From NCBI GenBank assembly GCA_918797485.1, contig CAKKNE010000002.1:4058501-4122500 (forward strand): 64,000 nt of DNA, in the 5' to 3' direction. The notes beneath the pieces are model-generated. The model made no database searches. It was given only the letters and a program-made list of their open reading frames with translations, and was not told the DNA's origin. The DNA comes from Pelagomonas calceolata (taxonomy: Eukaryota; Sar; Pelagophyceae; Pelagomonadales; Pelagomonadaceae). This document shows, one piece after another, positions 543 through 59,434 of the stretch (positions are counted from its first letter, which is position 1; every line of letters starts with the position of its first letter). A program made the translations under genes and the position numbers.

Positions 543-566
543 GCTAGCGGTCTGTAAAGACACTAG
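543..566. promoter_or_regulatory. Promoter palindrome copy 1 (divergent intergenic 358-879)
   Basis: This copy reads, on the minus strand, CTAGTGTCTTTACAG then ACCGCTAGC. It sits between the left-edge gene and the WD40 gene, about 186 and 314 bp from their start codons. Apart from this motif I see nothing else in the 522-bp intergenic region. Confidence 0.6.
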
Positions 567-879
567 GAATAGCCACGCTTTGGTTTTTCGCTTCATACGA
601 AGCCAAGCTGCGGCATCGGACAGCTTTGACTGGTTCGGACATCACTAATCGATCACAGCTGCACGCCTGAAACAGCAGCGTGCCGATTAGAGGCTTTTAA
701 AAGGCTAAACACAGCCTACCCGCGAAAGCCGCTCTCCGGCAGGATATAAGCGCAAGAAACGCAGCAGAAAACGCCGCGCCCCGCTCCCCGACGTCGAAGA
801 AGGCCTCGGCGACGCGGTCCGCAGCCAACACCCCCCAAAAACCAAGCAAATAAACGTCGTCGAGACAAGGCGGGAAACC

Positions 880-2598
880 ATGGAGTTCTCGCACGTCGGC
901 GACGTCCTGCACCCGTCGCCGGATGACGTCGAGGCAGCAGTAAGGGCCGCAGGCACGAACACGGGAGAAGAAGTTTTAGAAGCCGCGAGACGGAAGAAGA
1001 TGAGTTTCGTCCGGAGGCAATTAGCGCCGGAGGCATCTCGAAGAGTCGACGCGGCCCTCAGCGAGGAGTTCATCGGCGCGCCGGGGTGGCGGGTAGAAGT
1101 CGTCCAGGCGAGGCAGGTCTGCGGCGGGCCGTTGTGGTGCGTGTCGTCCGGAGGCAAGGGTCTCGTTGCTTGTGGTGGTTCTGATGGTGTCGTGCGAGTA
1201 GCGACCCTAGGAACGTTTGAGCGTGCCGAAAGGTGGCGACTCAATCGGGATTCGGCGTTGTCTGATGTCCAACTGCTCGAGGGCCACGAAGGGGCGGTCT
1301 TCGACTGCGCGTTTTCGAGGCAGGAGGACAAGAAGAAGACCACTCTCGTAACAGTATCGGCGGACGCTACCGCAAGGTTGTGGACGGGCTGGGAGGGCGA
1401 CCCGAGACTCTCGCCGGGTTTGATCTTCGCCCACGGGCAGGGCGTCTGCTGCTGCGCTTGGTTAGGGGGCGAATCATTTGTGACCGGCGGCTTCGACCGA
1501 AACATCCGAGTGTGGCACATTCCCGACCGCAAGGCGACGGCCTGGGCCCACTTGAACGATGCGGTTACTGCTGTTGGTTGCAGAGCGTCGGACGGTCCTG
1601 GGGCTCCAGCAAGGTTAGGTGTCGGTACAAGAGGCGGCCAGGTCTTCGTCTACAAGTCACGAGATCATACCCATGTAGAATGCGACGAGATGGTGCTGGG
1701 GACCATGCGTGCGGGAGCCTTCAACGAAGCGGAACGATGCGGTGCTGCGGGCATTCGGGCCCAATCCAATGCTCTGCAGGGCATCGTGGCCGGTTCGGCC
1801 AAGCCCAAGAAAAAAGGTGGAGGGGGCTTCTTCTCCAAATTGTTCAAGCCCCGGAAGAAGACCGCTGATTTGCAAGCCGAGTCCGAGGCGCGCGCGGCGG
1901 AATTCCTATCAGGTACCGACGAGGACACGAAAGTGGAAGAGCAGAGTACTGATGACGAAGGCGACGATAGTTCTGAAGATGGCGATCTACAGGAAATAGA
2001 ACAGACCGACAAGGTCGCTTCTATTGAGTCCGTGAAGTATAGAGCTTCCTCGATCTCATTTCCCAGAGAGGACGGGTTATTGTGCTGCGCGAACAACGGC
2101 GAGCCCGCTCTCTACGATGCGATGAACCCCCAGAAGGACGCTCAAACCACTTTTCGGGGAGGTGTTAGATCTGTGGTGGGCTGCGGCGTGTCTGCGGACG
2201 AGACGGGCACGTTCTGCGTCGGAGGCTCGGAGACGGGCCAAATCTTAGCGTGGCGGCTGCCTGATGTTGGGACGTCGAAGCCCGAAGCGCTGCCCTTGGA
2301 AATCGACGTGAAGGCACGGAACGCTCGGATTGCAGCGGTTACTGCCGTTGCTTTTGTGCCTGCTGAGAGCGCGTCCGCTACCTTAGATGCAAAAGTACTG
2401 AAGGCGACCTACGACAATACTGGAGCGTGTTTGATCGTCGCGACGGACTACTCTGGAAGGTTACTCGTCGCTCAGCGCGAGCCGGGCGACGCGCACGCCG
2501 AAGGTGTCGATACTTTACCGACGCCGCCGCCGTCGGCCACGAAGACGAAGAAGAAGCGCCCGTCCCTGCCGGGCCAGGCCTACGTCGAGGAGGAGTAA
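880..2598 (+). CDS. WD40-repeat protein, WDR44-like
   Basis: A 572-residue protein with an acidic, helical N-terminus (1-75), then WD-type blades from about residue 80 to 270. These include GHEGAVFDCAFS ... ADATARLW and the next blade ending GGFDRNIRVW. A charged linker follows with a basic KFSKLFKPRKK-like patch (about 310-330) and a Glu/Asp-rich stretch (340-370), then more blades to about residue 545 and a basic tail. The order of blades around a long charged insert recalls WDR44-type scaffolds that bind small GTPases, but that match is by memory and only moderate. The first ATG follows the promoter palindrome by 314 bp. No intron is needed. Confidence 0.7.
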   Translation: MEFSHVGDVLHPSPDDVEAAVRAAGTNTGEEVLEAARRKKMSFVRRQLAPEASRRVDAALSEEFIGAPGWRVEVVQARQVCGGPLWCVSSGGKGLVACGGSDGVVRVATLGTFERAERWRLNRDSALSDVQLLEGHEGAVFDCAFSRQEDKKKTTLVTVSADATARLWTGWEGDPRLSPGLIFAHGQGVCCCAWLGGESFVTGGFDRNIRVWHIPDRKATAWAHLNDAVTAVGCRASDGPGAPARLGVGTRGGQVFVYKSRDHTHVECDEMVLGTMRAGAFNEAERCGAAGIRAQSNALQGIVAGSAKPKKKGGGGFFSKLFKPRKKTADLQAESEARAAEFLSGTDEDTKVEEQSTDDEGDDSSEDGDLQEIEQTDKVASIESVKYRASSISFPREDGLLCCANNGEPALYDAMNPQKDAQTTFRGGVRSVVGCGVSADETGTFCVGGSETGQILAWRLPDVGTSKPEALPLEIDVKARNARIAAVTAVAFVPAESASATLDAKVLKATYDNTGACLIVATDYSGRLLVAQREPGDAHAEGVDTLPTPPPSATKTKKKRPSLPGQAYVEEE

Positions 2599-2771
2599 GT
2601 CGGCCATTTCTTGCATTAACGCGGCGGCGGAATCGCGGATATCGCTGACAGCTAGAATAAAACGGGTTTTACACGGCTCTAAATTAATTTAAATTTGACC
2701 CGCGCCGCCCGCCACGCCCGCCGCCGCGACTGAGATCGACAGGAAACCAACGCCTGACACACGACTCAAGC

Positions 2772-6047: not shown

Positions 6048-9000
6048 CTAGAAGATGTCGTACACGAGAAGATACGGCAGCATGGCCCCCTTGCCGTCCG
6101 ACGGCTCCGCCCGGGCCTTCACGTCCTCCCAGCCGCCTAGTTGATGGACGGAGCCGCGGTCGTGCCACTCCCAGCCCTTGTTCCAGTCCCTGCCTTTCCG
6201 CACGAAGGACGTGTAGTGGTTGCCCCGGAACATGATGAGGGCCACGAGGTCGCGCTTCCCGGCCTTTTTAGCCTTGTCGTCGAAGCACTTCGCCGCGTCG
6301 CGCACGCCGCCCATGAGAGCTAAGTCCATGACGCTCAAGACGTCACCCCGCGAACGATCGATGCCGGTCCACGTGATGCCCAGGATTAGTGTGGAAGCGC
6401 ACCTTGATAACGTTTGCGAAACAGCACAAGCCTTCGGCGCGTGGCACGCGTCACAAGATTTAGCAGTATGGGCGTGTGCAAGTAAGTACACGGGCGCTAG
6501 ATGGGCCCCTCGCTTGTAGGCGACGCGGGCCTGCTTGAGCTTCGTGGCCGGGGCTGAACGCGCATATTCTAAGACTTGCTCGTCGACGGCATCACTATTA
6601 GATTTGCCGCATTTGGAACAGGGCGCCTGCGTGATGCGGCCTACACTTGTAAGAGTAGAGGCGGCGCTTTTGGTGGAAGCGTCCGCTGTCAACGCCTCGA
6701 CTAATTCGCCGAGCACCTCGGCCACATCCAAGTGAGCGCCGCCCGTCGCGAGCTCCTGTCGTATGTCCGGGTCGCCTCCCTCCCTCTCGGCTAGCGCAGC
6801 TCGTAAATCGTCGATGGCCTGGTCGTACTGGCGCTTCTTCGTCGTCCTTCTCAACAATGCATTGCCGCTCTGGTCTAGGGGCGGGAGCGCGTCCAAAGCT
6901 CTACGCAAAGCCTTCGGCGCGGCGTCTTTCGCGTCAGCACTATCGAAGGCGCGCCGGAAGGACTTCGCGGACCGCAGCGCCGTCGCGAGGGCCTCGAGCG
7001 CGCAGTTCGCGCGGGGCTTCACGTCCTTCAAGTTGCGGGGGATGCCCTCGTCGACGGCGCCCCAGCCCTGCCGCTTGGGCGGCGGCGGCGCCGCCGACGG
7101 CAGCGGCCCCAGCGCCAAGCTTTGTGGGGGCGGCGAGCCCGGTGGCAAATTCGCGTCGACGGCGCCCCAGCCGCGCGGCGGAGTAGGCGGCGGCGGCGCG
7201 GCGGGCGGCGCCACGACTGGCGACGCCGGTGGCGACGTCGGCGCTGATGGTGGCGCGGCCGGCGCGGCCGGCGGAGGTGACGGCGGCGGCGACCGCGGTG
7301 CGGGTGGTGGCGACGGCGGTGGCGCAGAAGTAGCCGGCAGGACCGCCGACGGCAGCTTCGAGTCGACGGCGCCCCAGCCGCGCGGCGCGGGCGCTGGCGC
7401 GGGGGCAGGCGGTGATGGCGGCGTGGCAGGCGGCGCAACCGGCGGCGACCGCGGCGGCAACCGGACTGGCGGCGACCGCGGCGGCGACCGGACCGGCGGC
7501 GACGGCGGCGCGGGAGGTGGGAGGTGCGCGTCGACGGCGCCCCAGCCGCGGGGCACGGGCGGCGGGCGCGCCGGCGTCCACGGCGGCGACGCCGGCGGTT
7601 TTGGGGCGGTCTCCGCGTCCTCGATGGCCTGGAGCGCGCGCGCTAGCTCCGCGTCGTTCGCGAGGCGGGCCTCCTCCGCGGCTCGGCGCGCCGCGGCGGC
7701 GGCGGTCTCCTCCTCGAGGCGCCGCGCCTCGGCCGCCTCGGCCGCCTGCCGCTCGCGCTCGGCCTCGGCGGCCAGGCGCCGCCGCTCCGCGGCGGCCCGC
7801 TCGGCCTCGGCCTCGGCCGAGGCGCGCGACGCCGCGAGCGCCCGCTCCAGCTCGGCGGCCTCCTCGGACGGCCGCGCCGGTCGCGCGAACGCGGCCGCGG
7901 GCTCCGGCGCCGGATCGGGCGGTGGCGGCGCCGGCGCCCGCGCGGGCCGCGCCGCGGGCGCCGGCGCCGGCGCCGGCGGCTGCGCGGGTCTCTGCTTCTC
8001 GAGCTCGTGCGTCACGAGCGTGGACACGTAGGTGAAGGGGATGTCGACCTTGCTGTTGCTCTTCCGCACCCGCTTCGCCACGACCCGCTGCGTCGCTCCA
8101 TCCAAACACCGCAGCTGGTCCACGGTCGCGCCGGTCACGCCGCGCGCCGCGAGCGCCGCGGCGAGCTCCTCCTCCAGGTCGTAGTCGCGCGGCGGCTGCG
8201 CGAGCTGCTCCTTGATCAGCCGGCGCAGGACGTGGCGCGGCGCGTCCTTGTGCGCCAGGATCTGGCGCTGCCGCTCCGCGCCCAAGCCCGCGAGGGCCGC
8301 CGTCTCCTCTGCATCAAGTTCGACGTCGCGCGCGAGGGCGCCAATGCGCCGCGCCTCGGCGCTCGCCGCCGGCCGCTTCTCCCGCTTCTTCTTCGCGGGT
8401 ACGGCGGCCCAGCCGTCCTCCGCGGGCGCCTCCGCGGGCGCCTCGACGATCGGAGGCGGCGGCAGCTCCCTGGAAGCAACCTCGGGCTCGGGCGAGCGCG
8501 CGTCGAAGAACCGCTCGCCGTCCGACGACGACGACGACGACGAGGACTCGTCGTCGCTGTCGGCCGGCGGCGCCGCGCCTCGCTCGGGGATCTCGGGCGC
8601 CGCCGCGCGCGCCGCCGCCGCCCGCAGCGCGGCGGCCTTCTTTCGCTCCTTCTGGCGCTTCTTCTTCGCGGCCTTGGCGCCGAGCTTCTTCTCCTTCGGC
8701 TGCGCGGCGTCGCCGCGCGGCGTCGACGCGGGCGTGCCGTAGACGGTCGCCGGCGTCGTCGGCGTCGCCTCGTCGTCGCTCCACGACGTCGACGGCGCGG
8801 CGGGCTTCGGCGCCTTGGGCGGCGAGGGCCGCGCGTCGCGCAGTCTCGGCGCGACGCGGAACCGCGCCAGCAGGGCGCGGAGGCCCGCCGGCGGGTCCCG
8901 CACGATCAGATTCGAATACACGGCGCCGGGCTCGTACTTCCTCAATAAGAGTTTGCGCTGGGCCCCCGCCCGCTTCGAAGCCCGGTCGCCCCGCAGCTTC

Positions 9001-10934
9001 GCCGCGAGGTCGCGAAGCATCTGGCCGGACACGTAGGCGTCGCTTTCGCCCTTGGACTCCGCCCGGTCCGCGAGAGCTTCGCAATGCCGCCTAAAGTCTT
9101 TGGCCTCGTCCGGCCGCACGAGGTCCCACAGCAGCAGCAGATCGGAGATGGTCTCGCGCAGCCGCGACCGCTGCTCGAGGTCGAGGCACGACTCGTCGAG
9201 CGGCGCCTCCAGTAGATCGAAGGGCAGGGCCAAAAGCAAGTTCAAGGAAACACGCCTCTCTGTCCGCTCGCCCAGTAGGACCGCCTGTCTTCCCCGCGTG
9301 GCGGCGGCCTGACACAACACGCTCAGACAGAACGCGGCGACGTGCGGCTGGCCGCGCGTGCGCGATTCCCGATTGGGCATCGCGAGCTGCCGCCGCACGT
9401 TCTCGACGACTTCCAGCGCCTTGCGGGCCACGGTCGTTTCGTCGCCGTCGCCCTGGATGCTCGCCTGTAATTTCTGCAGCTCCGGCACCCGCCGGAGCGT
9501 GAGGAACGAGGCCACCCCCAACCGGCTCGCGAAAATCTCGGCTTGTTTCCGCGCAGCGCCGTCGACGCCCAGCACACACGTAAAGATCGGCGCGTTGGCC
9601 GCCCTGAAGTAGCTTTCGATTTCCATGACGCAGTCGATGGCGCGCGCCGCGTCGGCGCGGTCGAGCCGGCCCGCCGCCTCGAACAGACCCAGCGCGTGCA
9701 GAAATTCCAGACACGTGTGCGCGGTCGCGAGAGTTTGACCCGCGTTAATATCGTCCTTGCGCGCCTTGTAGAGGCGGCTGCGCACCTCGAGCGCGCGCCA
9801 GGTTGATTTGGGGGCGTACAGCTCCTCGCCGGCCTCGAGGCGCCGCATGCACGCCGCCGCCATCGCGGCCACCGCGAGGTAGGACCCGTTTTCTGGGTGG
9901 TCTTGGAACAGGTTGCCGGAAGTCTCTACGACGAGGCGCTCCGGGTGAGCCACCTCGAGCTCATCGCCTGGGACCATCTGAGCGGCCGGCGCGCCGTCGA
10001 CGGCGACGGCGACGTCGTCCATGTCCATGCTTTCTATCGCTTGCTGGACAACGGCGTCGCGGAGCTGCGGGGACATCATGCCGTGCAGCACAAGGGGCGC
10101 GGAGACGGTCCGCAGCGCCCACTCGGCCCACATGCGCGGCGTCCGCGGCACCGGCCACTCGCGCACGGCGATGGCCTCGATGCGGCCGCCCGCCCACGCG
10201 ATGTCGACGATCGTCGTCTTCAAGCCTCGCCGCGCGAGCTGGTCGTCCGCGCGGCGCACGAGCACGAGCGGCGGTATCCGCGCGCCTTGGAGGGCTTCGG
10301 CGGCCGGGACCGTGGGGTCGAGGTCAATCGAGATCCCGCACCAGGGCGCTTTGGCCTCCACGAGCTGGTGGGAGACCTCGGTGATGGCAACGTCGTCGTT
10401 GACGAGCGCCAGGCTCGCGCTCACGCCGCGCGCCCACTCCTCTCGGGGGCATTCGCACACCGCGGCTGCGGCGTCGCCGAGTGATCGGTCCCCCAACCGA
10501 TGGATGTTCAAAGCGCGCGACCCGACGTAGCCGCGTGCGTCGCCGACCACGAGGACCATGTCCGCTCGGGCGCCGCCGCCGGCCATGGCAATCAGCATTA
10601 CAGTGGCGTCGGGGGTCTCTCCGGGCGTGAGTAGGGTGTCCCCCGCGGTGAGCCGCTTTCCCACGTCGGGTCGGTGGAACTGGGCGTCGGGGAGGCGCAG
10701 GCCCTGGAGGATGTCCGGCAGGCCCAGATCGGTCTGAGTCTGCTGCCGGTTCCGGTTGATCAGCACCTCCTGCACCAGCTTTAGCACCGGCTTGCTCTGG
10801 AGCTCCTCACGAAGTATGTTCACTCTGAACGCGTGCTGGGCGACCCCCTCCTGGTCGGCCACCTGAAAGAGGACGCCGACCTCGCCCGGCTCGGCCGGCT
10901 TGCCCGGCGAGTCCGGCTTGTCCGGCGGCGGCAT
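6048..10934 (-). CDS. Large USP-like ubiquitin hydrolase (peptidase C19 type) with UIM-like and GWGAVD repeats
   Basis: A 1628-residue protein. The C-terminal 330 residues resemble divergent plant-type ubiquitin hydrolase-related proteins. The Cys box is NLKDVKPRANCALEAL (Cys1311), and the His box is RGNHYTSFV (His1573) followed by WEWHD. A CxxC ... CxxC pair (CSKCGK, CDACHA) lies between them as in USP zinc sub-domains. The middle is disordered: Ser/Asp runs near residue 800, an Ala/Glu coiled coil with a UIM-like segment (ELERALAASRAS), then four copies of GWGAVD at about residues 1133, 1190, 1258 and 1294 separated by Pro-rich linkers. The N-terminal 650 residues are helical and unrecognised. 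Activity on ubiquitin is inferred from the Cys and His boxes only. Confidence 0.7.
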   Translation of the reverse strand: MPPPDKPDSPGKPAEPGEVGVLFQVADQEGVAQHAFRVNILREELQSKPVLKLVQEVLINRNRQQTQTDLGLPDILQGLRLPDAQFHRPDVGKRLTAGDTLLTPGETPDATVMLIAMAGGGARADMVLVVGDARGYVGSRALNIHRLGDRSLGDAAAAVCECPREEWARGVSASLALVNDDVAITEVSHQLVEAKAPWCGISIDLDPTVPAAEALQGARIPPLVLVRRADDQLARRGLKTTIVDIAWAGGRIEAIAVREWPVPRTPRMWAEWALRTVSAPLVLHGMMSPQLRDAVVQQAIESMDMDDVAVAVDGAPAAQMVPGDELEVAHPERLVVETSGNLFQDHPENGSYLAVAAMAAACMRRLEAGEELYAPKSTWRALEVRSRLYKARKDDINAGQTLATAHTCLEFLHALGLFEAAGRLDRADAARAIDCVMEIESYFRAANAPIFTCVLGVDGAARKQAEIFASRLGVASFLTLRRVPELQKLQASIQGDGDETTVARKALEVVENVRRQLAMPNRESRTRGQPHVAAFCLSVLCQAAATRGRQAVLLGERTERRVSLNLLLALPFDLLEAPLDESCLDLEQRSRLRETISDLLLLWDLVRPDEAKDFRRHCEALADRAESKGESDAYVSGQMLRDLAAKLRGDRASKRAGAQRKLLLRKYEPGAVYSNLIVRDPPAGLRALLARFRVAPRLRDARPSPPKAPKPAAPSTSWSDDEATPTTPATVYGTPASTPRGDAAQPKEKKLGAKAAKKKRQKERKKAAALRAAAARAAAPEIPERGAAPPADSDDESSSSSSSSDGERFFDARSPEPEVASRELPPPPIVEAPAEAPAEDGWAAVPAKKKREKRPAASAEARRIGALARDVELDAEETAALAGLGAERQRQILAHKDAPRHVLRRLIKEQLAQPPRDYDLEEELAAALAARGVTGATVDQLRCLDGATQRVVAKRVRKSNSKVDIPFTYVSTLVTHELEKQRPAQPPAPAPAPAARPARAPAPPPPDPAPEPAAAFARPARPSEEAAELERALAASRASAEAEAERAAAERRRLAAEAERERQAAEAAEARRLEEETAAAAARRAAEEARLANDAELARALQAIEDAETAPKPPASPPWTPARPPPVPRGWGAVDAHLPPPAPPSPPVRSPPRSPPVRLPPRSPPVAPPATPPSPPAPAPAPAPRGWGAVDSKLPSAVLPATSAPPPSPPPAPRSPPPSPPPAAPAAPPSAPTSPPASPVVAPPAAPPPPTPPRGWGAVDANLPPGSPPPQSLALGPLPSAAPPPPKRQGWGAVDEGIPRNLKDVKPRANCALEALATALRSAKSFRRAFDSADAKDAAPKALRRALDALPPLDQSGNALLRRTTKKRQYDQAIDDLRAALAEREGGDPDIRQELATGGAHLDVAEVLGELVEALTADASTKSAASTLTSVGRITQAPCSKCGKSNSDAVDEQVLEYARSAPATKLKQARVAYKRGAHLAPVYLLAHAHTAKSCDACHAPKACAVSQTLSRCASTLILGITWTGIDRSRGDVLSVMDLALMGGVRDAAKCFDDKAKKAGKRDLVALIMFRGNHYTSFVRKGRDWNKGWEWHDRGSVHQLGGWEDVKARAEPSDGKGAMLPYLLVYDIF

Positions 10935-11181: not shown

Positions 11182-11205
11182 GCTAGCGACCAGTAAGACA
11201 CTAGC
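11182..11205. promoter_or_regulatory. Promoter palindrome copy 2 (divergent intergenic 10935-11394)
   Basis: Perfect outer arms GCTAGCG and CACTAGC with a GTAAGACACTAG core on the plus strand. It sits between the USP-like gene (248 bp) and VPS29 (190 bp). The rest of the intergenic is GCAGCGC-rich and otherwise featureless. Confidence 0.65.
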
Positions 11206-11394: not shown

Positions 11395-11967
11395 ATGGCA
11401 AAAGACTTCGGCGAGCTCGCCCTCGTTTTAGGAGATGCGCACGTGCCCGGCCGCGCGCCGAAAATTCCCGCGAAACTGAAACGCATGCTCGTGCCGAACA
11501 AGATGCAGCACGTTTTGTGTACGGGCAACATGGGGTCGCGCGAGCTCTATGATGAGTTAAGGGCGCTGGCGCCGACGCAACATTTTGTGTGTGGAGATGA
11601 CGACGATGATGCGGACTTCCCGGAGGAGACGATTACACAGATAGGTGATGTGAAAGTAGGCGTCGTCCACGGCCACGACGTCCAGCCCTGGGGCGACGCG
11701 AAGGCGCTGGAAGCGCGGAGGAGGCGGTTGGACGTCGACGTATTGATCTCGGGCCACACGCATCGAGCCGAAGTGCGGGAGGAGGGCGATTACTTATACC
11801 TCAACCCCGGGACGATCACGGGCGCTTATGCACCTGCTTCTCCAGACATCGTGCCGTCCTTCATCCTGCTGGCGGTCCAGGGGCCGAAGGTCGTCGTCTA
11901 CCTCTACGAGCTGCATGGCGACTCGGTCGATGTCTCAAAGTCCGAGTTCACGGCGCAGCCTAAGTAG
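11395..11967 (+). CDS. VPS29: VPS29, retromer subunit
   Basis: A 190-residue protein of the typical VPS29 length. It has the metallophosphoesterase-like fold signature (LVLGDAHVPGR at 10-20, VLCTGNMGS, FVCGDDD, VVHGHD, LISGHTHRAE, LNPGTITG). VPS29 joins VPS35 and VPS26 in retromer for endosome-to-Golgi recycling and is normally catalytically inert. The His-to-Asn type changes at the usual nuclease positions (GNMG for GNHD) fit that. The first ATG gives the canonical N-terminus. Confidence 0.97.
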   Translation: MAKDFGELALVLGDAHVPGRAPKIPAKLKRMLVPNKMQHVLCTGNMGSRELYDELRALAPTQHFVCGDDDDDADFPEETITQIGDVKVGVVHGHDVQPWGDAKALEARRRRLDVDVLISGHTHRAEVREEGDYLYLNPGTITGAYAPASPDIVPSFILLAVQGPKVVVYLYELHGDSVDVSKSEFTAQPK

Positions 11968-14590: not shown

Positions 14591-14610
14591 GCTAGTGTCT
14601 TACCGCTAGC
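14591..14610. promoter_or_regulatory. Promoter palindrome copy 3, shortened
   Basis: The two arms GCTAGTGTCTTAC and CGCTAGC are directly joined (20 bp). Position between PI4K (244 bp) and the secreted Cys-rich gene (90 bp). Flanked by TTTGC and GCAAA, which lengthens the palindrome. Confidence 0.65.
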
Positions 14611-14699: not shown

Positions 14700-15719
14700 A
14701 TGCGCGGCCCCACGGTTTACCTCCTCCTGGCCACCGTAAGATCAGAGGACTGGGTCCAAAAAACCACTGACAATATAGAACGAGCCTGGCCCTCGGCCCT
14801 CGACCGGAGACTTAGTACAGGAGGCGCCTGCGACGCCGACGCCGCCCTCACGACCTTCCAGAAGTGCCTGAAGGCGCAGTGCCCGACGATCATCGACAGT
14901 AAAGCGGCGACGCTTTACGTGTTTCCAGCACAAAATGACACCGCGACCACCTGCCAAGAAGCGAGAGAACTCCCTGCTTTCAGAGACGCCTGCTGCGCGT
15001 CGCAGCTCATCGAGTACGCCTGCGGGCACCACCGATCTTATGTGGGGGAGGGCGCGAAGGGCTACCAGCAGGCCAAGGCCATGGCCATCCAGCAAAGGAA
15101 CTCGCTGAAGTGGGTCGAGGGGGAAGATTATGACGATAGTGGCTGTCGGGACGCGTGGCGGGCCGTCGTGGAATGTGTCTGGCACAACGGTGTAACGAAT
15201 AAGGGCCTCGACTGCGACATGACGTGCCCCGAGCCGAGGACGCCCGCGCCATCCATGGCGCCGTCTTCCACAAACCAAATCTACCCCACGAAGATGCCCA
15301 CGATGCCCGAAAGTCACCTGGAAAAGTGCCCCTGCTCCAGCGACTGGGGCTGGGACCGCAAATCCCTCGGGAACGGCTGGGCCGACGGCAGCGGCAAGCC
15401 TGGTAGTCATGAGGGCGGCGCCGACCCGAACGACCCGGACCACTGGCGCTGCCGCCACGCGCTCGGCGGCGGGCCGGGCGGTTCTGGGAGGCGCGGCGGG
15501 CCGCGGCCCAAATCCGAGGGCCAGGAGGGCACGAAGAAGGCCAAGGGCCGCTACAACGGCCACCGGGGCGAGTGCGGGCCGCGCCTGCCCGACGAGGGCC
15601 GGGCCGCCGGCGGGCCGCGGTCCGCGAACGCGGACCTGTACCCGCCGTGCGCCGTGAATGCCGCGCTCCCGTCCGCGCCGGGGGTCGCGCTGCTCCTGTT
15701 CGCGGCGTTCGTCGCGTAA
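14700..15719 (+). CDS. Secreted or GPI-anchored Cys-rich protein
   Basis: From the ATG at 14700 the product is 339 residues and begins MRGPTVYLLLATVRS, a plausible signal peptide; an upstream in-frame ATG at 14628 would bury it. The first 200 residues carry about 12 Cys in patterns such as CDAD ... CLKAQC ... ACCASQLIEYACG ... CRDAWRAVVECVW, likely disulfide-bonded. A Pro/Ser/Thr linker (PAPSMAPSS ... YPTKMPTMPES) leads to a Gly/Arg-rich segment. The last residues (APGVALLLFAAFVA) are hydrophobic, as in GPI-anchor signals. No family recognised; a surface or wall protein is inferred. Confidence 0.65.
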   Translation: MRGPTVYLLLATVRSEDWVQKTTDNIERAWPSALDRRLSTGGACDADAALTTFQKCLKAQCPTIIDSKAATLYVFPAQNDTATTCQEARELPAFRDACCASQLIEYACGHHRSYVGEGAKGYQQAKAMAIQQRNSLKWVEGEDYDDSGCRDAWRAVVECVWHNGVTNKGLDCDMTCPEPRTPAPSMAPSSTNQIYPTKMPTMPESHLEKCPCSSDWGWDRKSLGNGWADGSGKPGSHEGGADPNDPDHWRCRHALGGGPGGSGRRGGPRPKSEGQEGTKKAKGRYNGHRGECGPRLPDEGRAAGGPRSANADLYPPCAVNAALPSAPGVALLLFAAFVA

Positions 15720-15756: not shown

Positions 15757-15812
15757 TGTCGTCAACTGGTGTTCGATGTTACGGTGCTAGGACTAGTGTC
15801 GTCAACTGGTGT
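15757..15812. repeat. 16-bp direct repeat flanking the 3' boundary motif
   Basis: TGTCGTCAACTGGTGT occurs at 15757-15772 and again at 15797-15812, with the boundary motif TGTTACGGTGCTAG between. Forty bases separate the two starts. It looks like a local duplication. Confidence 0.7.
15777..15798 (+). terminator. 3' boundary motif copy 1
   Basis: TGTTACGGTGCTAG followed by GACTAGTG, 58 bp after the stop codon of the Cys-rich gene. The same 22 bases recur, inverted, at 37999-38020. A role in 3' end formation or insulation is inferred from position only. Confidence 0.4.
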
Positions 15813-15928: not shown

Positions 15929-15952
15929 GCTAGTATCTTACAGACCGCTAGC
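15929..15952. promoter_or_regulatory. Promoter palindrome copy 4 (upstream of CDPK)
   Basis: GCTAGTATCTTACAG then ACCGCTAGC, with GCGC outside each arm. It lies 313 bp upstream of the CDPK ATG and 130 bp after boundary motif copy 1. The remainder of 15953-16264 shows no other feature. Confidence 0.65.
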
Positions 15953-19053: not shown

Positions 19054-19077
19054 GCTAGCGTCCTGTAAGGCACTAGC
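19054..19077. promoter_or_regulatory. Promoter palindrome copy 5
   Basis: Plus-strand GCTAGCGTCCTGTAAGG then CACTAGC. It lies 124 bp from the PH-protein start and 228 bp from the plus gene at 19305. Nothing else seen in 18931-19304. Confidence 0.65.
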
Positions 19078-37998: not shown

Positions 37999-38020
37999 CA
38001 CTAGTCCTAGCACCGTAACA
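37999..38020 (-). terminator. 3' boundary motif copy 2
   Basis: Inverted and identical over 22 bases to 15777-15798. It lies about 86 bp after the stop codon of the minus gene at 38106 and 150 bp from promoter palindrome copy 10. Confidence 0.4.
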
Positions 38021-44464: not shown

Positions 44465-44489
44465 GCTAGTGTCTTTACAGGCCGCTAGG
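44465..44489. promoter_or_regulatory. Promoter palindrome copy 12 (intergenic 44280-44705)
   Basis: GCTAGTGTCTTTACAGG then CCGCTAGG, 186 bp from the DUF3223 gene and 216 bp from the WWE/UIM gene. An 18-bp tandem repeat (CAGTGGTGCTGCCGCTCG) follows at 44581-44618. Confidence 0.65.
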
Positions 44490-47356: not shown

Positions 47357-49450
47357 CTAGACCTGGAAGTAGATGGCCGTCTGCGGCTCCACCAAACACG
47401 CGTCGCCGGCCTGCTTACTGATCGTCATCGCCGTCTTGTAGAAGAGGAGCTGGCCCTTGTGGTTCACGAGCCAGCTCCGGTCCGCCCCCGCTTCTACCTT
47501 GAAGTTGCGGCCCGGCCGGTAATCAACTTCATCTAAAGAAGAAAAGCACCGGAAGCACTGGAGCCGCGGCCTTGTTACTGTTTCGGTGGAAATCCAGAAC
47601 AGCGGCGTCTCCGGGTTCGCTATTCCTCTGTCAACGGCCTCGTCGACGTACCACGTCTGATGTTCATAAGCACTGATGGTAGGCGACCGCCACTGATGGG
47701 CCCGTTTCACCGCCTCGCCCCAGAGCGGTATACAACTATAACCAGCACCACCAGCACCACAAGCCGATTTTTTGGTACATTCGAAATCATAAGGACGCCT
47801 CTCCTGAACATGGGACCCGTTCATGGCCCACAATTGCAACCATTCTAGGGCAGCTTGGTCGTGCGGGTGGCACTGGGCCAAACCGTCCCGCGCGACGGCG
47901 AGCCACTTCCGCACGACCTCCCTTCCATCTGCATTGCCCCTTACGAGAAACACTCCAGTGTTCAAACCTCGGTAGTTGCCCAAGACGACATGTCTATTTT
48001 GAGGAACGTCTTCGACATACCTCTCGAGTTCCACAGAAAACTGACTAGGATTCACCCAGGCGTCGGCGTCGATCCAGCAGTACCACCTCGCTGTCCTATA
48101 TCGACGCATCGCGTCGCGCACCATGAGTATCTTCGAGAACTCCCACGCCAAGCGCTTTTCCTCGAAAATATGTGAATGCGCCGTCTTCCGCCGCAGCAAC
48201 CGATCCAGCGTGTCCGCCACATAGAAAGCAAACCCGTAACCTCGGGCAAGAGCGTAGGCCCGCTTGTTCAGCGCAAGGTCCACGTCCGCCTTCGCGTTGT
48301 TCCCGTCCCTCACATTCACGCCGGACACAATGACGAAAGCTGGTGCATGCGGCTCTTGCGTCGTCGCGAACCCATGCATGCATGGTAATCTCCGATCACC
48401 TTCATCTCCAAGAATACGAGCGGCGAGGGCGTCGATTTTACTCGCGTCGCCCTCGAACTTGACTAATCTTTCAGGCGTGCCCGCGCGGACTTTCGCCCGC
48501 TCGCGCTCGAGGTCGGCGCCGGCGCAGCCGGCGCCGCATGAGGCGCAGCGTAACTGTGGAGGGAGGTCGCTCGGTTCTATACTAAGATCGTAGGCCGCGT
48601 CCAAGACCGCGTCCGGCGGGCTCTCGGAGGACCCGGGGCCCGCCAGTTGTTTGTCTCTGTAGTTTCGTAAGACGTCCGCGAGTTCTTTGGCCCTCTGACC
48701 ACCTTTCGTAGAAGCCCAGCCTATCAAAGTGGTCGAGAGGTCCGCGACGGCCGCGTGGCCGGGTTTTGTAGGGGGTGCCGCGGCGACGTATAAAGTGTCA
48801 CCATCAATGGAGGGCAGCGCGGCCCAGAAGTCCTTGGAGAAGGTTCTGCAAGGGGTCCACGCGTCCAGATCTATAGACACGATGATCTGCGAGGAGGCCT
48901 CGGCCGTGCCTTCGTCGAGCTCCGTAATTAATGATTCGGTGACGCGGCTCGTTCTGGATGAAGTACCGGACGTGCCGAGCGCCGCGTGGCGCCGTTCCAA
49001 GCCCGCCGCCTCCGCCACCGACCAAAGCTCGTCCTGGAACCGCTCGCGCTCGTCTTCTTTCGAACCGCTCCCCCAGTAGGGCGTCTGCACGAGGACCGCC
49101 GTGCGTGCTGCTCTTTGACCTCTCAGTTCCTTCACGATGCGCAGCGCGGACCGCCTTGCAGAAGGCGAGGCCGCGTGCAGCGTCAATCGCACGGACGGAG
49201 GCAGGGGCGCCGGCGTCGGCGGCCGCGGCTTGTGGTCGTCGGCGGCCCAGTTCGTGACCTGAGACATTATTTTCGTGTAAAATTGCAAAGCTCGTTCGTC
49301 CTCGGCGAGCTCTTTTGGAGTGCGGGGCGCGTAGTTCTCGCGGTAGCGCTTCTCGTCGGCGAGGGCCATCTCCTTGGCGACGGGGTCGACGAGGCGCTCA
49401 TTTGTTATAGCTGCGCAGGCGGCCGCGGCGCAGAGGAGGAGCGCTCGCAT
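47357..49450 (-). CDS. GT34-like (GMA12/MNN10 type) glycosyltransferase with N-terminal extension
   Basis: A 697-residue protein with a signal peptide (MRALLLCAAAACAA). Residues 60-290 form an Asp/Ser-rich domain I do not recognise, possibly a second degenerate transferase fold (QIIVSIDLDAWTP). The GT34 part is about 370-600: NKRAYALARGYGFAFYV, WEFSKILMVRDAMRRYRTARWYCWIDADAWVNP with the DxD motif, then GNYRGLNTGVFLVRGNADGREVVRKWL. A Golgi-type alpha-galactosyl or mannosyl transferase is inferred. No clear transmembrane anchor beyond the leader. Confidence 0.82.
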   Translation of the reverse strand: MRALLLCAAAACAAITNERLVDPVAKEMALADEKRYRENYAPRTPKELAEDERALQFYTKIMSQVTNWAADDHKPRPPTPAPLPPSVRLTLHAASPSARRSALRIVKELRGQRAARTAVLVQTPYWGSGSKEDERERFQDELWSVAEAAGLERRHAALGTSGTSSRTSRVTESLITELDEGTAEASSQIIVSIDLDAWTPCRTFSKDFWAALPSIDGDTLYVAAAPPTKPGHAAVADLSTTLIGWASTKGGQRAKELADVLRNYRDKQLAGPGSSESPPDAVLDAAYDLSIEPSDLPPQLRCASCGAGCAGADLERERAKVRAGTPERLVKFEGDASKIDALAARILGDEGDRRLPCMHGFATTQEPHAPAFVIVSGVNVRDGNNAKADVDLALNKRAYALARGYGFAFYVADTLDRLLRRKTAHSHIFEEKRLAWEFSKILMVRDAMRRYRTARWYCWIDADAWVNPSQFSVELERYVEDVPQNRHVVLGNYRGLNTGVFLVRGNADGREVVRKWLAVARDGLAQCHPHDQAALEWLQLWAMNGSHVQERRPYDFECTKKSACGAGGAGYSCIPLWGEAVKRAHQWRSPTISAYEHQTWYVDEAVDRGIANPETPLFWISTETVTRPRLQCFRCFSSLDEVDYRPGRNFKVEAGADRSWLVNHKGQLLFYKTAMTISKQAGDACLVEPQTAIYFQV

Positions 49451-49587: not shown

Positions 49588-49610
49588 GCTAGTGTCTTAC
49601 AGCCGCTAGC
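49588..49610. promoter_or_regulatory. Promoter palindrome copy 13
   Basis: GCTAGTGTCTTACAG then CCGCTAGC, 138 bp upstream of the GT34-like gene. Confidence 0.65.
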
Positions 49611-49722
49611 TAACCAACACCCGATCGCCAATCCCAATAGTGGCGAAGCGTTCGGGGTCCGTACTACCTGGGGGTGGGTTCAATAAGTGGCTCTCTCTCT
49701 CAGCAGGCGCGAAGGTTTTGTA

Positions 49723-49736
49723 CTAGCACCGTAACA
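49723..49736 (-). terminator. 3' boundary motif copy 3
   Basis: TGTTACGGTGCTAG on the minus strand, 5-20 bp after the stop codon of the Cys-rich gene and 113 bp from promoter palindrome copy 13. Confidence 0.4.
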
Positions 49737-49742: not shown

Positions 49743-50747
49743 TTAACGCTCCATCTCTTCCACGCGGACCGAGCCCCCGCCCCCGCCGCCGCCGCCGTCG
49801 CCGCCGCCGCCGTCTCCCTGCTGGTGGTACGGGTACACGACGCTCTCGAAGATGGCGGCCGCGAACCACACCTCGGGGGGCACGTCGTTCTTGGCGGGCA
49901 GTTGCATGCTATACGTCTGGAGGCCGATCGGCTTCCCCCCGGGGCAGAAGCAACACGGCATTCGCCGGAAGGGCTGGACTGGGTCGCGCCCGGGCCCGCT
50001 CGCGCACGGCTGGAGTATCCACCGGTACATCCCCGCACCCGGTTCGCCCTCGACGGGCCGCACGAACGGCGTGTCACAGCAGGGCTGCACGCAACACGGA
50101 TACAGCGTGCCCTTCAGAGTTGTTGAATTGACTGTCATGTCAGCATCAGCAATACACTGGGGGCAGGCGCTCGGGCCGCCGTGGGACACGAGGGGATACG
50201 CGACGCCGGCCTTGACGACCCGCCCCGAGATAGGCGTGTTGTCGCAGGGGCACTGACACGCGGGGACGACGTCGAAATGAAGTCGGGCCGCTTCGAAGTT
50301 TCTGTCCGTGATCTTACCGTTGCCAGCGTCGATCGTCGAGAGGTACACGGGCACCTCTAAACCTTGATAGGGGTTCTTGCAGCAGCCCATGTTATCCATG
50401 ATCATGCCGAACGTCACTTCCGACGCGAAGGCCGGCCGCGCCCCGGCGCCCATCACGTCGTCCGCGGCGTAGCCCGCGAAGGCCTGTCCCGGGAACTTGC
50501 CACAATTGGCGACGAGCAAGTGGTCGACGAGGACCACTGGTCCGGCGGGCGCGGCCGGCATCATCATCTGCGGAGCGGCGGCGGGCACGGCGATCGTGAA
50601 CTGCTGGCCCGGGCCCAGGCCCGGCGGGATCTGGACCTGGACCGGCTGCCCATTGGGGGCCGTGAGCTGGACCATTGTCCCGGGCGGAGCACCCTCTGGC
50701 ACCTGGACCGTCATCATGGCGCTAGGGGCCGCCATGACTTGTGCCAT
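49743..50747 (-). CDS. Cys-rich protein with VP-G-PG repeat
   Basis: A 334-residue protein. Residues 10-55 hold a duplicated VQVPEGAPPG ... IPPGLGPGQQFTIAVP motif, also present once in the WWE/UIM protein at 44706. The central part has many Cys, often paired (MGCCKNP, CQCPCDN, YPCCVQPCCDTP, MPCCFCPGG), which may bind metal or be acylated. A hydrophobic stretch (VWFAAAIFESVVYPY) precedes a Gly-rich, charged tail. It faintly recalls scramblase-like Cys-rich membrane-associated proteins; I cannot assign it. Confidence 0.6.
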   Translation of the reverse strand: MAQVMAAPSAMMTVQVPEGAPPGTMVQLTAPNGQPVQVQIPPGLGPGQQFTIAVPAAAPQMMMPAAPAGPVVLVDHLLVANCGKFPGQAFAGYAADDVMGAGARPAFASEVTFGMIMDNMGCCKNPYQGLEVPVYLSTIDAGNGKITDRNFEAARLHFDVVPACQCPCDNTPISGRVVKAGVAYPLVSHGGPSACPQCIADADMTVNSTTLKGTLYPCCVQPCCDTPFVRPVEGEPGAGMYRWILQPCASGPGRDPVQPFRRMPCCFCPGGKPIGLQTYSMQLPAKNDVPPEVWFAAAIFESVVYPYHQQGDGGGGDGGGGGGGGSVRVEEMER

Positions 50748-50913: not shown

Positions 50914-50935
50914 CCTAGCTAGGTAGAGACACTAG
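50914..50935. promoter_or_regulatory. Promoter palindrome copy 14 (tandem intergenic 50748-51108)
   Basis: On the minus strand GCTAGTGTCTCTAC then CTAGCTAG, degenerate. It is 167 bp upstream of the Cys-rich gene. The intergenic also carries the dispersed repeat copy 2 and a weak boundary motif at 51038-51050. Confidence 0.5.
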
Positions 50936-50943
50936 CCGATTCA

Positions 50944-51019
50944 CCAGCCGGACGGGTGGGCCCGGGGGGAGCGGGAGGGGTGCGGGGGACCCTGCGACGT
51001 AACTAGCCTGAGCCTGAGC
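50944..51019. repeat. Dispersed 76-bp repeat, copy 2
   Basis: Matches 37867-37942 with four differences and the same orientation, the same position next to a promoter palindrome, and the same CCTGAG tail. Confidence 0.85.
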
Positions 51020-51037
51020 CTGATTCACGCACTCCCG

Positions 51038-51050
51038 TGCTAGCACCGCA
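51038..51050 (-). terminator. 3' boundary motif copy 4, degenerate
   Basis: CTGCGGTGCTAGC on the minus strand, about 59 bp after the stop of the large membrane protein and 103 bp from promoter palindrome copy 14. Confidence 0.3.
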
Positions 51051-51108
51051 GACTAGCATCGTATATCAGAAACTGAAACACACTCATAAAATTAACAAAA
51101 CCGCGTCG

Positions 51109-56154: not shown

Positions 56155-56398
56155 GATGATTGCTAGCTTTTGCCGGCAGTGGCAGGAGCCAGGGAATACC
56201 TTGGTTGCTTGAAAGCTAGCTAGCTGCCCGTGGTGCGCATTGTGCACTTTGTGGGTCTTTACGGGCTGCTTGGGGCAGCGTTTTGGCACAGCGCCTTGAG
56301 ACCCAATCACAAACCTAGTATGTCTCACACTAACCCACAAAACTGGCCGCGCGGCGTCCAGTGCGCGCCCTTGAGGCTAGGCTAGGCTATCTATAATA

Positions 56399-56923
56399 TT
56401 ACCTCGCTATCCGCAGCGCCTCGTCGTCGCCCCGCGGCGTCCAGTAGACGCCCGCGCGGCACGCCTCCTCGGCCGAGAACTGGCGTCGTTCTTCCCGCCG
56501 CCGCGCCGCGTGCACGATACAAAAGCCGCCGAAGAGAATGGTGAGGAGCACGACGCCGCCAAGGACCCAGAGCGCCGCCGTGGCGAACGTGTCGGCGTCG
56601 GTCGGTGCCGCGTCGTCGTCGCCGTCGTCGTCCGAGCAGCGGCTCGCGGCTGCGAGCCCCGCCCGGGCCTCGGTCGTGTTCGTGGCGTTGCAAAAGCGCT
56701 CGAGGTCCGCGCCACAGGTCGCTCGCGCGACGGCCTCGGTGCAGTTCCAGGCCGTCGGCGCGGCGGACGGCAGCGGACTCGGAACGGCCGTCGGCTGGCG
56801 CGTCGGCTGGTGCGTCGGTCGCGGCGTCGGCTGGCGCGTCGGTCGCGGCGTCGGCTGGCGCGTCGGCCGCGGTGTGGGGCTGCCCCATACGGCCACCAGC
56901 AAGAGCCAGCCCCACGCATGCAT
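56399..56923 (-). CDS. Single-pass membrane protein with PTxxPT repeats
   Basis: From MHAWGWLLLVAVWGSP (56923) the product is 174 residues with a signal peptide. A Pro-Thr-Arg repeat (PTRQPTPRPT units, residues 16-45) follows, encoded by 24-bp tandem repeats at about 56790-56875. A short Cys-containing ectodomain (WNCTEAVARATCGADLERFCNATN) carries N-glycosylation sites. A transmembrane helix (ALWVLGGVVLLTILFGGFCIV, about 108-128) and a basic cytoplasmic tail end it. PTxxPT runs are typical of stramenopile cell-surface proteins. Confidence 0.7.
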   Translation of the reverse strand: MHAWGWLLLVAVWGSPTPRPTRQPTPRPTRQPTPRPTHQPTRQPTAVPSPLPSAAPTAWNCTEAVARATCGADLERFCNATNTTEARAGLAAASRCSDDDGDDDAAPTDADTFATAALWVLGGVVLLTILFGGFCIVHAARRREERRQFSAEEACRAGVYWTPRGDDEALRIAR

Positions 56924-57017
56924 CCAGCATTCAGCGGGCGACGTTCTGGACCATGGCTTCGCTGCGTAGCCGTTGTCTAGGCTGCTGGTATGCAGCGCTC
57001 TGATTGATTTTTTGCAA

Positions 57018-57039
57018 TCTAGTGTGTTACTACGCTGGC
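57018..57039. promoter_or_regulatory. Promoter palindrome copy 15, degenerate (intergenic 56924-57226)
   Basis: TCTAGTGTGTTAC then TACGCTGGC, 95 bp from the PTxxPT gene and about 188 bp from the ATG at 57227. Bases 57045-57234 also stay open in another plus frame with a hydrophobic stretch (AWALIGLIVGIPFCAQL) but no ATG. Confidence 0.5.
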
Positions 57040-57226
57040 ACAGCATCATCGGCGCCGCACTGGGGCAGCCCAGAACGACCCGCAGCGCTCGTAAAAACGG
57101 CGGCCGTCCCTCCCTGGGCCTGGGCCCTGATTGGGCTCATTGTGGGCATCCCATTTTGTGCCCAGCTCAATTGTTACATCGAGAAGAAGCGCGAGGAATG
57201 CGCGAAAAGAGATGAGGTAGACGCAA

Positions 57227-57610
57227 ATGTGTGATGATGCCTCCGATGGCGTCTGCGCCACGGGCTCGTTCCTGCTCGGCGGCTTTTCCGGCGGCATGGG
57301 CGGCTTTGTTGGAATGCTCCTTGGGGCGCCGGTGTTCGGCGTCTTCGGCGGCGTGACGCTCGGCGTCCTCGCGGGCGCCTACCCGAACGGCCCGCCGCGC
57401 GCCGTCCTCGCGACCGTCGTCGCGGCCGCGGCGCCGGCGGCCTACGCGAGCTGCGCAATCGTAAGGACGCGCGACGCCGGCGTGCTGTTCGCCTGCGCAG
57501 TATTTACATCCGGTGCGGCGAGCCTGGCCCTCTTCGCGAGCGGGGCCCTCGCGGCGCATCGGAGGCGGCTCGAGGTCGAGGAGGAGCTCCTCAAGGAGAC
57601 GTCGGTATGA
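57227..57610 (+). CDS. Small Gly/Ala-rich membrane protein
   Basis: A 127-residue ORF starting MCDDASDGVCATGSF. Three hydrophobic segments are visible: a Gly-rich one (GGFSGGMGGFVGMLLGAPVFGVFGGVTLGVLAGAY), AVLATVVAAAAPAAYASC, and VLFACAVFTSGAASLALFASGAL, then a charged tail RRRLEVEEELLKE. An upstream open frame ending at 57234 encodes another hydrophobic piece and overlaps it, so an unseen splice may join them. No family recognised. Confidence 0.5.
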   Translation: MCDDASDGVCATGSFLLGGFSGGMGGFVGMLLGAPVFGVFGGVTLGVLAGAYPNGPPRAVLATVVAAAAPAAYASCAIVRTRDAGVLFACAVFTSGAASLALFASGALAAHRRRLEVEEELLKETSV

Positions 57611-57764
57611 TACGTCTGCTCGATGGCGTGGATGCTGGCGCCCGTCTCACGACTCGGGCGCCGTCGACGACTGGAACGCGGCGTGCGGTCACTCAGATGA
57701 CCCGCTGGTGGCTAGGCGGCCTAGCTCTAAGCAAAGCAACAGGAACTAGGAATCTCAACCTTAC

Positions 57765-59210
57765 TCATGACTGCGTCGACCGCTGCTCGCGGACCGTCCC
57801 GCGCGTCCGTCTTTTTCGACGCACGGTCTTCCGCTTCCGCTTGACAGAGTCCTCGGGCCACTCCGCGTCGAGCTCATCCAAGAACCCCGCCACATCCGAC
57901 GACACCTTGCAGACGGCGCTCCGTGTCGCGTACTCCTCGACCTCCTCGATCGACGGCCAGGAGACGTTTATCGCGTTCACTTTCTCGGCCTTGTCCCTTA
58001 TTCTTCGCAGTAGTCTTTCTTCGGACTCCTGCTTGCGTTGACGAGCCATGCCTTCTTCTTCTCGTCGTCTTCTGTGTTCAATCCTGACAATCTTGTGGAA
58101 GCAAGTCAGAAATTCCGCGCCGTCGACGAGGCCGTCGCCGTGGCGATCTAACACACCCATCAACGCAGCTAACTCCGCCGGTGTGAGCGTGATCCGTAAA
58201 CAGACTTTCAGGAAGTGTTTGAGAGTGGTAGCGTCCATGTTCGACCCCTTCTTGAAGGGGTTTAAGTCTGGTGCGGCCGCGCCTCTCAGAGCCCCTCGCG
58301 CGATCTTTGCCAACTTGCCCAACGCAGACGCCTCGTCGTCCTCCGTGTAGTCCTCCAACAAAGCCTCTTCGTCCCTCGCGAAGAACCTTTCATGGATCGC
58401 CTCCTCGACGTCCCGTTGCCGTCGTTGCCGCTGCTCCCGCGATCGCCGTTCCTCGTCGAAGCGCGCTGATCTTAATTCAGCACTCAACCGGAAGAACCTC
58501 GAAGCAAATTCCCCACCATCAACTAACCCGTCTTCATTGGCGAAGAAGGCCATGACCGCCGCGAGTTCCGACGGGTCGAGTTGCACGTTGAAAACCACGC
58601 GTAATTGCTGCCAGAAGGATGAGGGAGTCAGGGGCCCGCCCTCCGAGAAAGGAGTTAGTGCAGGACCTTTGGGTGGCGGCGCCCAGGCACCAGCCGCGGC
58701 CTCCAACTTCCGCAGACCCCGGTCGCGGTCCTCATCACTCCACGTCGCAGCTACAGCGACCTGCGCCTGCTTCCGATGTTTAGCAACAACGGCAGCTTCC
58801 CGTTCCAACTTCCGCTCCAGGAAGTAGGAGTTGTCCTCCCTTGCCAATCGTTCCCGTTTCGTCTTCTCTTCCGTTTTCACGTCAGACAGGTGTTTGGCGA
58901 ACTCCTTCGCAGCGACGGTCCCGTCGCCGTCGTTGTCGAAGGCGCAGAACAACATGCCGAGCTCCTTCGCATTCAGCTTCACGTTCAGAGAACGCATCTG
59001 CTTGGCGAAAGCCTTCGGGTCCAAGTCGGCGCCCGTCGCGAGCTGCCTGAGCTCCTTCTGGTCAATCACAAAAGCGCCCCGGGCGAGTTTTCTCCTCGTC
59101 AAAGCCCATCGCGGCGAGTCGAGCATGGCGCGCCTTTCGTTTATGTTGGGCAGGATGAGACTCCCTCTTGTGGACAGCGCCGACGCGTCGTCGAGGTGGT
59201 GGTAGGACAT
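57765..59210 (-). CDS. EF-hand repeat protein
   Basis: A 481-residue protein. EF-hands are visible at about 85-105 (LFCAFDNDGDGTVAAKEF, canonical), about 215-235 (AFFANEDGLVDGGEF, loop short of acidic residues) and about 340-360 (GVLDRHGDGLVDGAEF). Charged coiled coils separate them, and a basic C-terminus (KRKRKTVRRKRRTRG) may bind nucleic acid or acidic lipids. The domain layout is like that of the 1176-residue EF-hand protein at 32364, so a shared cytoskeletal or ciliary role is possible. Start MSYHHLDD. Confidence 0.78.
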   Translation of the reverse strand: MSYHHLDDASALSTRGSLILPNINERRAMLDSPRWALTRRKLARGAFVIDQKELRQLATGADLDPKAFAKQMRSLNVKLNAKELGMLFCAFDNDGDGTVAAKEFAKHLSDVKTEEKTKRERLAREDNSYFLERKLEREAAVVAKHRKQAQVAVAATWSDEDRDRGLRKLEAAAGAWAPPPKGPALTPFSEGGPLTPSSFWQQLRVVFNVQLDPSELAAVMAFFANEDGLVDGGEFASRFFRLSAELRSARFDEERRSREQRQRRQRDVEEAIHERFFARDEEALLEDYTEDDEASALGKLAKIARGALRGAAAPDLNPFKKGSNMDATTLKHFLKVCLRITLTPAELAALMGVLDRHGDGLVDGAEFLTCFHKIVRIEHRRRREEEGMARQRKQESEERLLRRIRDKAEKVNAINVSWPSIEEVEEYATRSAVCKVSSDVAGFLDELDAEWPEDSVKRKRKTVRRKRRTRGTVREQRSTQS

Positions 59211-59411
59211 GCCTGCTGCGCGTTGTGTTGGGGCAGCCCCCTCGGTGGTTCTGGCGGTCTCTGCGCTTTCCTGGGGCGCCTTTTTGGCCCTGGTGTCTCT
59301 GGCGTCTCTGTGGCGCTGTCCCGGGTGTGACCGGGACGCTGGTTGACAACGGACGCGTCGGCGGCCTTCCTGACGCGCGGCGAGGACTGGTGGGGCGGTG
59401 GTGCTGGATTT

Positions 59412-59434
59412 GCTAGTGTCTTTGTGTCTTTAGC
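59412..59434. promoter_or_regulatory. Promoter palindrome copy 16 (intergenic 59211-59639)
   Basis: GCTAGTGTCTTTG then TGTCTTTAGC; the right arm has decayed. It lies 202 bp from the EF-hand gene and 206 bp from the W-motif gene. Nothing else seen in the gap. Confidence 0.5.

Follow-up and report, generated by a model that had tools for sequence, protein, structure and literature searches.

The general regulatory factor sites of yeast (Reb1, Abf1) are long and sometimes bipartite sequences that recur across many promoters, frequently between divergent genes, and that lie upstream of the start region. What is known of core promoters as such comes mostly from animals, fungi and plants. The nearest functional counterpart that was found for the sequence considered here would be the vertebrate CGCG element, TCTCGCGAGA, which PMC6192621 describes as a palindrome of TATA-less CpG-island promoters, among them those of ribosomal-protein and housekeeping genes, where it activates divergent start sites. 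Closest by taxonomy, if the DNA analysed is of stramenopile origin, would be the core promoter of Phytophthora infestans, for which PMC3599244 reports INR (YCAYTYY) plus FPR (MWTTTNC), and also DPEP; the INR + FPR pair is directional (5.9 to 1), has a gap of nearly always 2 nt and accounts for ~13% of genes. The subject of the present study is a repeated element of the 64,000-base stretch of DNA presented above (hereafter the window), noticed in a preliminary description as a 24-bp palindromic promoter signature and probably serving as a bidirectional core-promoter element, specific to its lineage, to which a putative sequence-specific protein would bind.

The element is bipartite and quasi-palindromic. 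Across 29 sites, 16 from the window and 13 from contigs of metagenome-assembled genomes (MAGs), the consensus was (G)CTAGTGTCTT, a linker of 1–7 bp (often ACAGNN), and then CGCTAGC; the MAG set leaves out a chance-level match scoring 15/19 within an open reading frame (ORF; contig L013, 7954–7974) and a copy truncated by the end of contig L014 (9633). CTAGT at left positions 2–6, T at position 10 and the right-arm T were invariant throughout. Total length ranged from 19 to 25 bp, with 24 bp, the figure originally given, being the commonest value (13 sites; 23 bp at six, 22 bp at five, 25 bp at two, 20 bp at two and 19 bp at one). Both of the arms previously reported are kept, but as imperfect partners: at position 6 the left arm has T at all 29 sites, and the right arm has C at 26 of the 29. 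Two equal half-sites at a fixed spacing, the expectation for a rigid homodimer, were not what the alignment contained: the 1–7 bp linker and the fixed arm asymmetry would argue against such a form of the dimeric factor first raised as an alternative, and the variable linker suggests two flexibly joined DNA-binding modules.

Comparison with the vertebrate system reveals a likeness in that both elements are palindromic and linked to divergent transcription, by demonstrated activation for the CGCG element and by prediction here. However, the CGCG element as reported is symmetric and 10 bp long, whereas that of the window is ~24 bp, bipartite, of fixed asymmetry, variable in its linker and unrelated in sequence, the 29-site consensus not corresponding to the CGCG sequence, and, unlike the CGCG element, it stands upstream of most gene starts in the window (PMC6192621). 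With the oomycete INR + FPR it appears to share the character of a long start-site element of two related halves in a stramenopile, while differing from that directional pair, present at ~13% of genes, in its absence of orientation bias and its presence at 26/35 gene starts; neither INR nor FPR was seen by eye in the element consensus, the part of the promoters so compared (PMC3599244). No report of the element was found in the open-access literature searched, a scope outside which most subscription journals fall. The main text of the Pelagomonas calceolata genome paper (PMC9481584) contains none of the terms 'palindrom', 'motif' and 'promoter', and the virus promoter motif given in PMC5917014 differs from the element in sequence.

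All 16 palindromic sites previously listed were confirmed to be present, with offsets of at most 4 bases. When scored against a consensus of 12 + 7 letters with a linker of 0–6 (maximum 19), with ten first-order Markov copies of the window as background, 14 of the 16 reached at least 16/19, a level at which the Markov copies yielded no match; the two others, at 24635 and 50918, scored 15/19, at which level the copies averaged 2.0 matches. When a gapped weight matrix was built from the 13 MAG sites, its best 16 window matches were exactly the 16 noted sites (19.3–31.5, with the next at 10.1); because the training sites had been found with the window consensus, this result speaks for coherence and ranking and does not amount to a blind test. 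The same matrix gave a mean of 0.1 matches at scores of at least 15 in ten Markov copies of the window, against the 16 observed. A model-free count of 8-mers accorded the top z-score in head-to-head plus tandem intergenic DNA to CTAGTGTC (11 seen, 0.2 expected), which occurred nowhere in the coding or tail-to-tail DNA of the window. The element is, therefore, more than a chance pattern.

Gene starts, region classes and distances given throughout are based on ORF-derived gene models, 35 of which cover 84% of positions 880–62947. The 34 intergenic regions between neighbouring models (9977 bp) consist of 11 head-to-head (4170 bp), 11 tandem (3725 bp) and 12 tail-to-tail (2082 bp) regions, and the element was present in 10/11, 5/11 and 0/12 of these respectively (Fisher's test on regions, head-to-head versus tail-to-tail, p = 1e-5), with the sixteenth site located upstream of the first gene. 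Most sites, 10 of 16, thus do lie between divergent pairs, with five in tandem regions and one at the window edge. Under random placement by length, the absence of all 15 sites from the 52 kb of coding sequence had p = 1e-12; within the window, then, coding and intergenic DNA did not show the equal density named beforehand as the contrary outcome. Random placement within intergenic DNA alone gave p = 0.046 for 10/15 sites in head-to-head regions. Both an enrichment in divergent promoters and an absence from coding and convergent DNA were accordingly recorded, subject to one uncertain ORF at 57018: the earlier statement that the sites are never coding stands for clear coding DNA, but the 57018 site overlaps the possible ORF 56399–57049.

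Within head-to-head regions the sites were central, with a mean offset of 0.10 of region length (p = 0.0006 versus uniform). A clear copy was found upstream of 26/35 gene starts, which bears out the description of a signature common to most genes, and the distance from motif to ATG was 63–312 bp with a median of 191 (42 gene starts: 25 from the window and 17 from the MAGs, the L012 site and the left gene at 57018 being omitted). By position only, the element occurs in either orientation: in 11 tandem promoters of the window and MAGs it was oriented with the gene in four cases and against it in seven, and the site at L011 7635 would add one to the latter.

Leaders are commonly selected against upstream ATG, and ATG depletion was accordingly deployed as a proxy for the position of the transcription start. 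In the 42 motif-to-ATG intervals (8028 bp), ATG was the most depleted of the 64 trinucleotides, with 19 seen where base composition predicts 81.6; CAT, its reverse complement, occurred 99 times. An out-of-frame count, which excludes the reading frame that start-codon choice could bias, gave 12 ATG versus 71 CAT (p = 2e-11), and the equivalent count for the 24 starts of the window alone gave 4 versus 38 (p = 6e-8). The depletion extended to the motif itself: the 40 bp next to it held 3 ATG versus 14 CAT. In 12 tandem regions the far flank of the element gave 19 ATG versus 14 CAT (Fisher's p = 5e-6 between the two sides), and tail-to-tail DNA contained 21 ATG versus 15 CAT. A one-step change-point fit to 40 gene starts, leaving out 57018 and counting each head-to-head region twice, once per strand, placed the boundary of depletion at +13 bp from the motif edge (support −6 to +49); with head-to-head regions alone the support was −37 to +49. 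Because outward ATG is depleted and inward ATG, read as CAT, is not, neither leader appears to cross the element; both would begin close to it, and we infer from this proxy that outward transcription is initiated at the element or directly next to it. Location by region class, central placement in head-to-head regions, the lack of a fixed orientation in tandem regions and an ATG signal beginning close to the element together lend support to the core bidirectional promoter suggested at the outset.

In the mechanism that we propose, a putative DNA-binding protein would recognise two unequal half-sites, CTAGTGTCTT and CGCTAGC, set 1–7 bp apart; once bound, it would keep the short intergenic region open and recruit RNA polymerase II, with initiation proceeding outward both ways from positions at, or within ~50 bp of, the element edges to give leaders of ~190 nt. 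A single copy would serve both genes of a head-to-head pair, and a copy in a tandem region, whichever way it is oriented, would serve the downstream gene. If most genes of a compact marine algal genome do share one long two-way element, it would offer a clean system for studying how one protein bound to DNA determines where divergent transcripts start, improve gene annotation in little-studied phytoplankton and supply two-way promoters for algal work.

A number of observations weigh against this proposal. Tail-to-tail DNA is short (2082 of the 9977 bp), so that by length its lack of sites reaches only p = 0.03, and the MAG match at L013 7954–7974 falls within an ORF. Nine of the 35 gene starts in the window are without a clear copy, including those of both genes of the head-to-head pair flanking 42027–42485, and must use something else. 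With respect to the proxy, the far-side count of 19 ATG in tandem regions is also under the 30.4 expected from composition; the change point was broader or shifted in subsets of the data (window −60 to +13, best −47; MAGs −20 to +106, best +85) and was not resolved by tandem regions alone (gain 2.4). Finally, no second element or initiator at a fixed offset beside the element was found at the 29 sites.

The last of these observations, together with the flexible linker and the absence of orientation bias, would suit an upstream regulatory or chromatin-organising site that opens promoters in the manner of Reb1 or Abf1, with the start site being set further downstream at diverse positions, and the MAG-only change point would permit a start as far away as +106 bp. 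The element resembles those yeast sites in its length, its occurrence in many promoters and, with part of them, its bipartite form and its situation between divergent genes, but its sequence is different and, whereas they lie upstream of the start region, the proxy puts the start near the element. As the depletion of ATG reaches the motif within the first 40 bp and the change point from all data lies between −6 and +49, we regard such a site as a serious but distinctly less probable explanation than a core promoter.

Readings in which the element is a hairpin or a mobile element are disfavoured. An RNA hairpin located in the 5' leader and working at the level of the mRNA would be in keeping with arms that could pair with one G-U and with leaders that appear to begin nearby; however, among 14 deviating arm positions (positions 1–5, 29 sites) only one was matched in both arms, at site 37826, where pairing is broken at the next position. 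Moreover, primary sequence is kept in the left arm, core and right arm alike, a single copy stands between genes on both strands, and there is no Rfam match, all of which render an RNA element very improbable. Equally hard to credit is an origin from a tiny transposon, either as its remnants or as its terminal repeats joined together. In favour of this one might cite the two-armed palindromic repeat, the presence in this genome of introner-like elements with terminal repeats, and an 85-nt repeat, 91% alike, adjoining two of the copies; against it, a search for target duplications, covering exact abutting repeats only, gave 0/29 sites at 4, 5, 6 or 8 bp, 1/29 at 3 bp and 6/29 at 2 bp, none of the 16 window sites lies in clear coding or tail-to-tail DNA, and clear copies stand one to a promoter in a regular position. 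A chance or compositional pattern has nothing to commend it for the set as a whole, although two of the 16 sites are individually marginal, and is effectively eliminated by the consensus and matrix results on the Markov copies and by the 8-mer count.

The MAG sites used above go back to a scan of a prokaryote contig collection (84,980 species by its own description) for CTAGTGTCTTACAGNNCGCTAG, which detected four stretches in two MAGs titled Spirochaeta (G001 and G002) that, from their isolate names, we take to be marine in origin. Some of the MAG contigs carry eukaryotic-looking genes, as read from translations, namely an importin-like HEAT protein (L001) and proteins with plastid-type leaders (L004). 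Codon usage correlated with that of the window at 0.97–0.98 for L011, L013 and L014 and at 0.91–0.92 for L010 and L012, compared with 0.87 for the bacterial genes of L015; L013 and the window have an intron-like repeat family in common, and placement of the element was similar across L010–L015. It would appear that L010–L014, assigned to G001, a published Spirochaeta MAG, are mis-binned algal contigs from this lineage or one close to it, L010 and L012 being less certain by codon usage, and the element may thus mark algal contigs hidden in bacterial metagenome bins. Having been found via the element, these contigs are informative on its sequence and placement rather than on its frequency. L015, the first 12 kb analysed of contig 13 of G002, belongs to a 77-kb contig titled uncultured Spirochaeta, of which the first ~3.5 kb carries the element and has a codon-usage correlation of 0.94 with the window versus 0.79 with the contig's further genes; it is probably a chimeric assembly. 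Exact and gapped patterns of the element gave no match in a viral-contig collection. A 12-base half-pattern with one mismatch, tried as a search in the two MAGs, proved non-discriminating, with 10 and 1 matches versus 16 and 8 for a reversed control.

The window itself is 63% GC and holds densely packed eukaryotic genes, mostly without introns, among which full-length Sec23, a PI3/PI4-kinase, a Ulp1 protease, an EF-hand protein kinase, ribosomal protein L34e, F-box and WWE genes and others were recognised; Rfam and tRNA scans of the window gave no match. Its GC content and gene density agree with the figures in the Pelagomonas calceolata genome paper (63% GC, 32.4 Mb with 16,667 genes, and 0.45 introns per gene; PMC9481584), so that the source is perhaps a pelagophyte. 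Chloropicon primus, for which PMC6731263 gives a GC content of 57.5%, was considered first and set aside.

Scores on the gapped matrix trained on the MAG sites are given in brackets for each copy of the element. Head-to-head copies were located at 11182–11205 (−; 31.5), between 6048–10934 (−) and a phosphoesterase gene at 11395–11967 (+); at 14591–14610 (+; 20 bp; 29.3), between the PI3/PI4-kinase gene 11999–14347 (−) and 14700–15719 (+); at 19054–19077 (−; 27.5), between a PH-domain gene at 17860–18930 (−) and 19305–21317 (+); at 25710–25733 (+; 31.5), between 25068–25541 (−) and 25885–26799 (+); at 28744–28767 (−; 27.5), between 27701–28537 (−) and a MYND/TPR gene at 28831–30000 (+); at 31080–31103 (+; 23.9), between 30025–30912 (−) and 31336–32280 (+); at 39473–39494 (+; 30.6), between a D-serine dehydratase-like gene at 38106–39254 (−) and that of ribosomal protein L34e at 39689–40033 (+); at 44465–44489 (+; 22.5), between 43287–44279 (−) and the WWE gene 44706–47303 (+); and at 59412–59434 (+; 22.5), between an EF-hand gene at 57765–59210 (−) and 59640–61112 (+). 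The remaining head-to-head copy, 57018–57039 (+; 20.6), lies near 57227–57610 (+) and overlaps the uncertain N-terminus of ORF 56399–57049 (−), for which, its start being uncertain, the matrix analysis used a shorter model (to 56930).

Tandem copies were found at 15929–15952 (+; 29.8), upstream of the EF-hand protein kinase gene 16265–17758 (+); at 24635–24657 (−; 19.3, marginal by consensus score alone), upstream of a GH3 gene at 22119–24514 (−); at 37826–37849 (−; 19.3), upstream of the Ulp1-protease gene 36023–37651 (−); at 49588–49610 (+; 30.6), upstream of 47357–49450 (−); and at 50914–50936 (−; 19.6), a degenerate copy upstream of 49743–50747 (−), placed at 50918–50936 by consensus scoring and likewise marginal by that score alone. 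The copy at the window edge, before the first gene, occupies 543–567 (−; 26.3), upstream of a WD40 gene at 880–2598 (+). A possible weak copy at 56314–56334 (+; 9.3), in the tandem region 56155–56398, was under the clear cut and remained uncounted. The only head-to-head region without the element, 42027–42485, carries TGTTACGG near its middle, and a different core promoter may therefore exist there.

A second repeated sequence, TGTTACGGTGCTAGGACTAGTG, was detected in tandem regions 6–85 bp past the upstream stop codon, ahead of the promoter element and reading in the same direction as the two genes. Copies classed as clear (16–22 of 22) were located in the window at 15777–15798 (+), 37999–38020 (−) and 49715–49736 (−), and in L011 at 299, 2050 and 4054; a partial copy at around 5285 of L014 keeps the first 10/10 bases and then diverges, and a weak copy at 51032–51053 of the window (−) matches at 14/22, a score that 64 kb would yield by chance ~12 times. 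The 12 tandem regions with the promoter element thus include six clear, one partial and one weak copy, compared with best matches of 10–12 of 22 in seven listed tandem regions without the element and 6–13 in 12 tail-to-tail regions. The words TTAC, GCTAG and CTAGTG are common to TGTTACGGTGCTAGGACTAGTG and the promoter element. It is a matter of speculation that TGTTACGGTGCTAGGACTAGTG might act as a terminator or insulator. A wider scheme, which we put forward tentatively and consider unlikely in its entirety, would have one long bipartite element replacing the usual core-promoter mix in this algal lineage and one dedicated protein setting both starts at most genes, with TGTTACGGTGCTAGGACTAGTG stopping read-through from the gene upstream and the resulting two-word code, which would punctuate gene order, perhaps being read by the same protein.

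Introner-like repeats with terminal inverted repeats (TGTGTGGAAATCAA...) and ends of the form GTGAGT...CACACAG were recorded at 23425–23600 and 26806–26931 in the window, and at 1441–1545 and 2251–2400 in L013. One of the window copies interrupts the GH3 gene 22119–24514, where inspection by eye suggests a 9-bp target duplication with one mismatch; Aureococcus introners are described in PMC9860276 as having 8-bp duplications. The 85-nt repeat that adjoins two element copies in tandem regions lies at 37858–37942 and 50936–51020 (91% identical), and its position beside them suggests possible copying of promoter cassettes from gene to gene.

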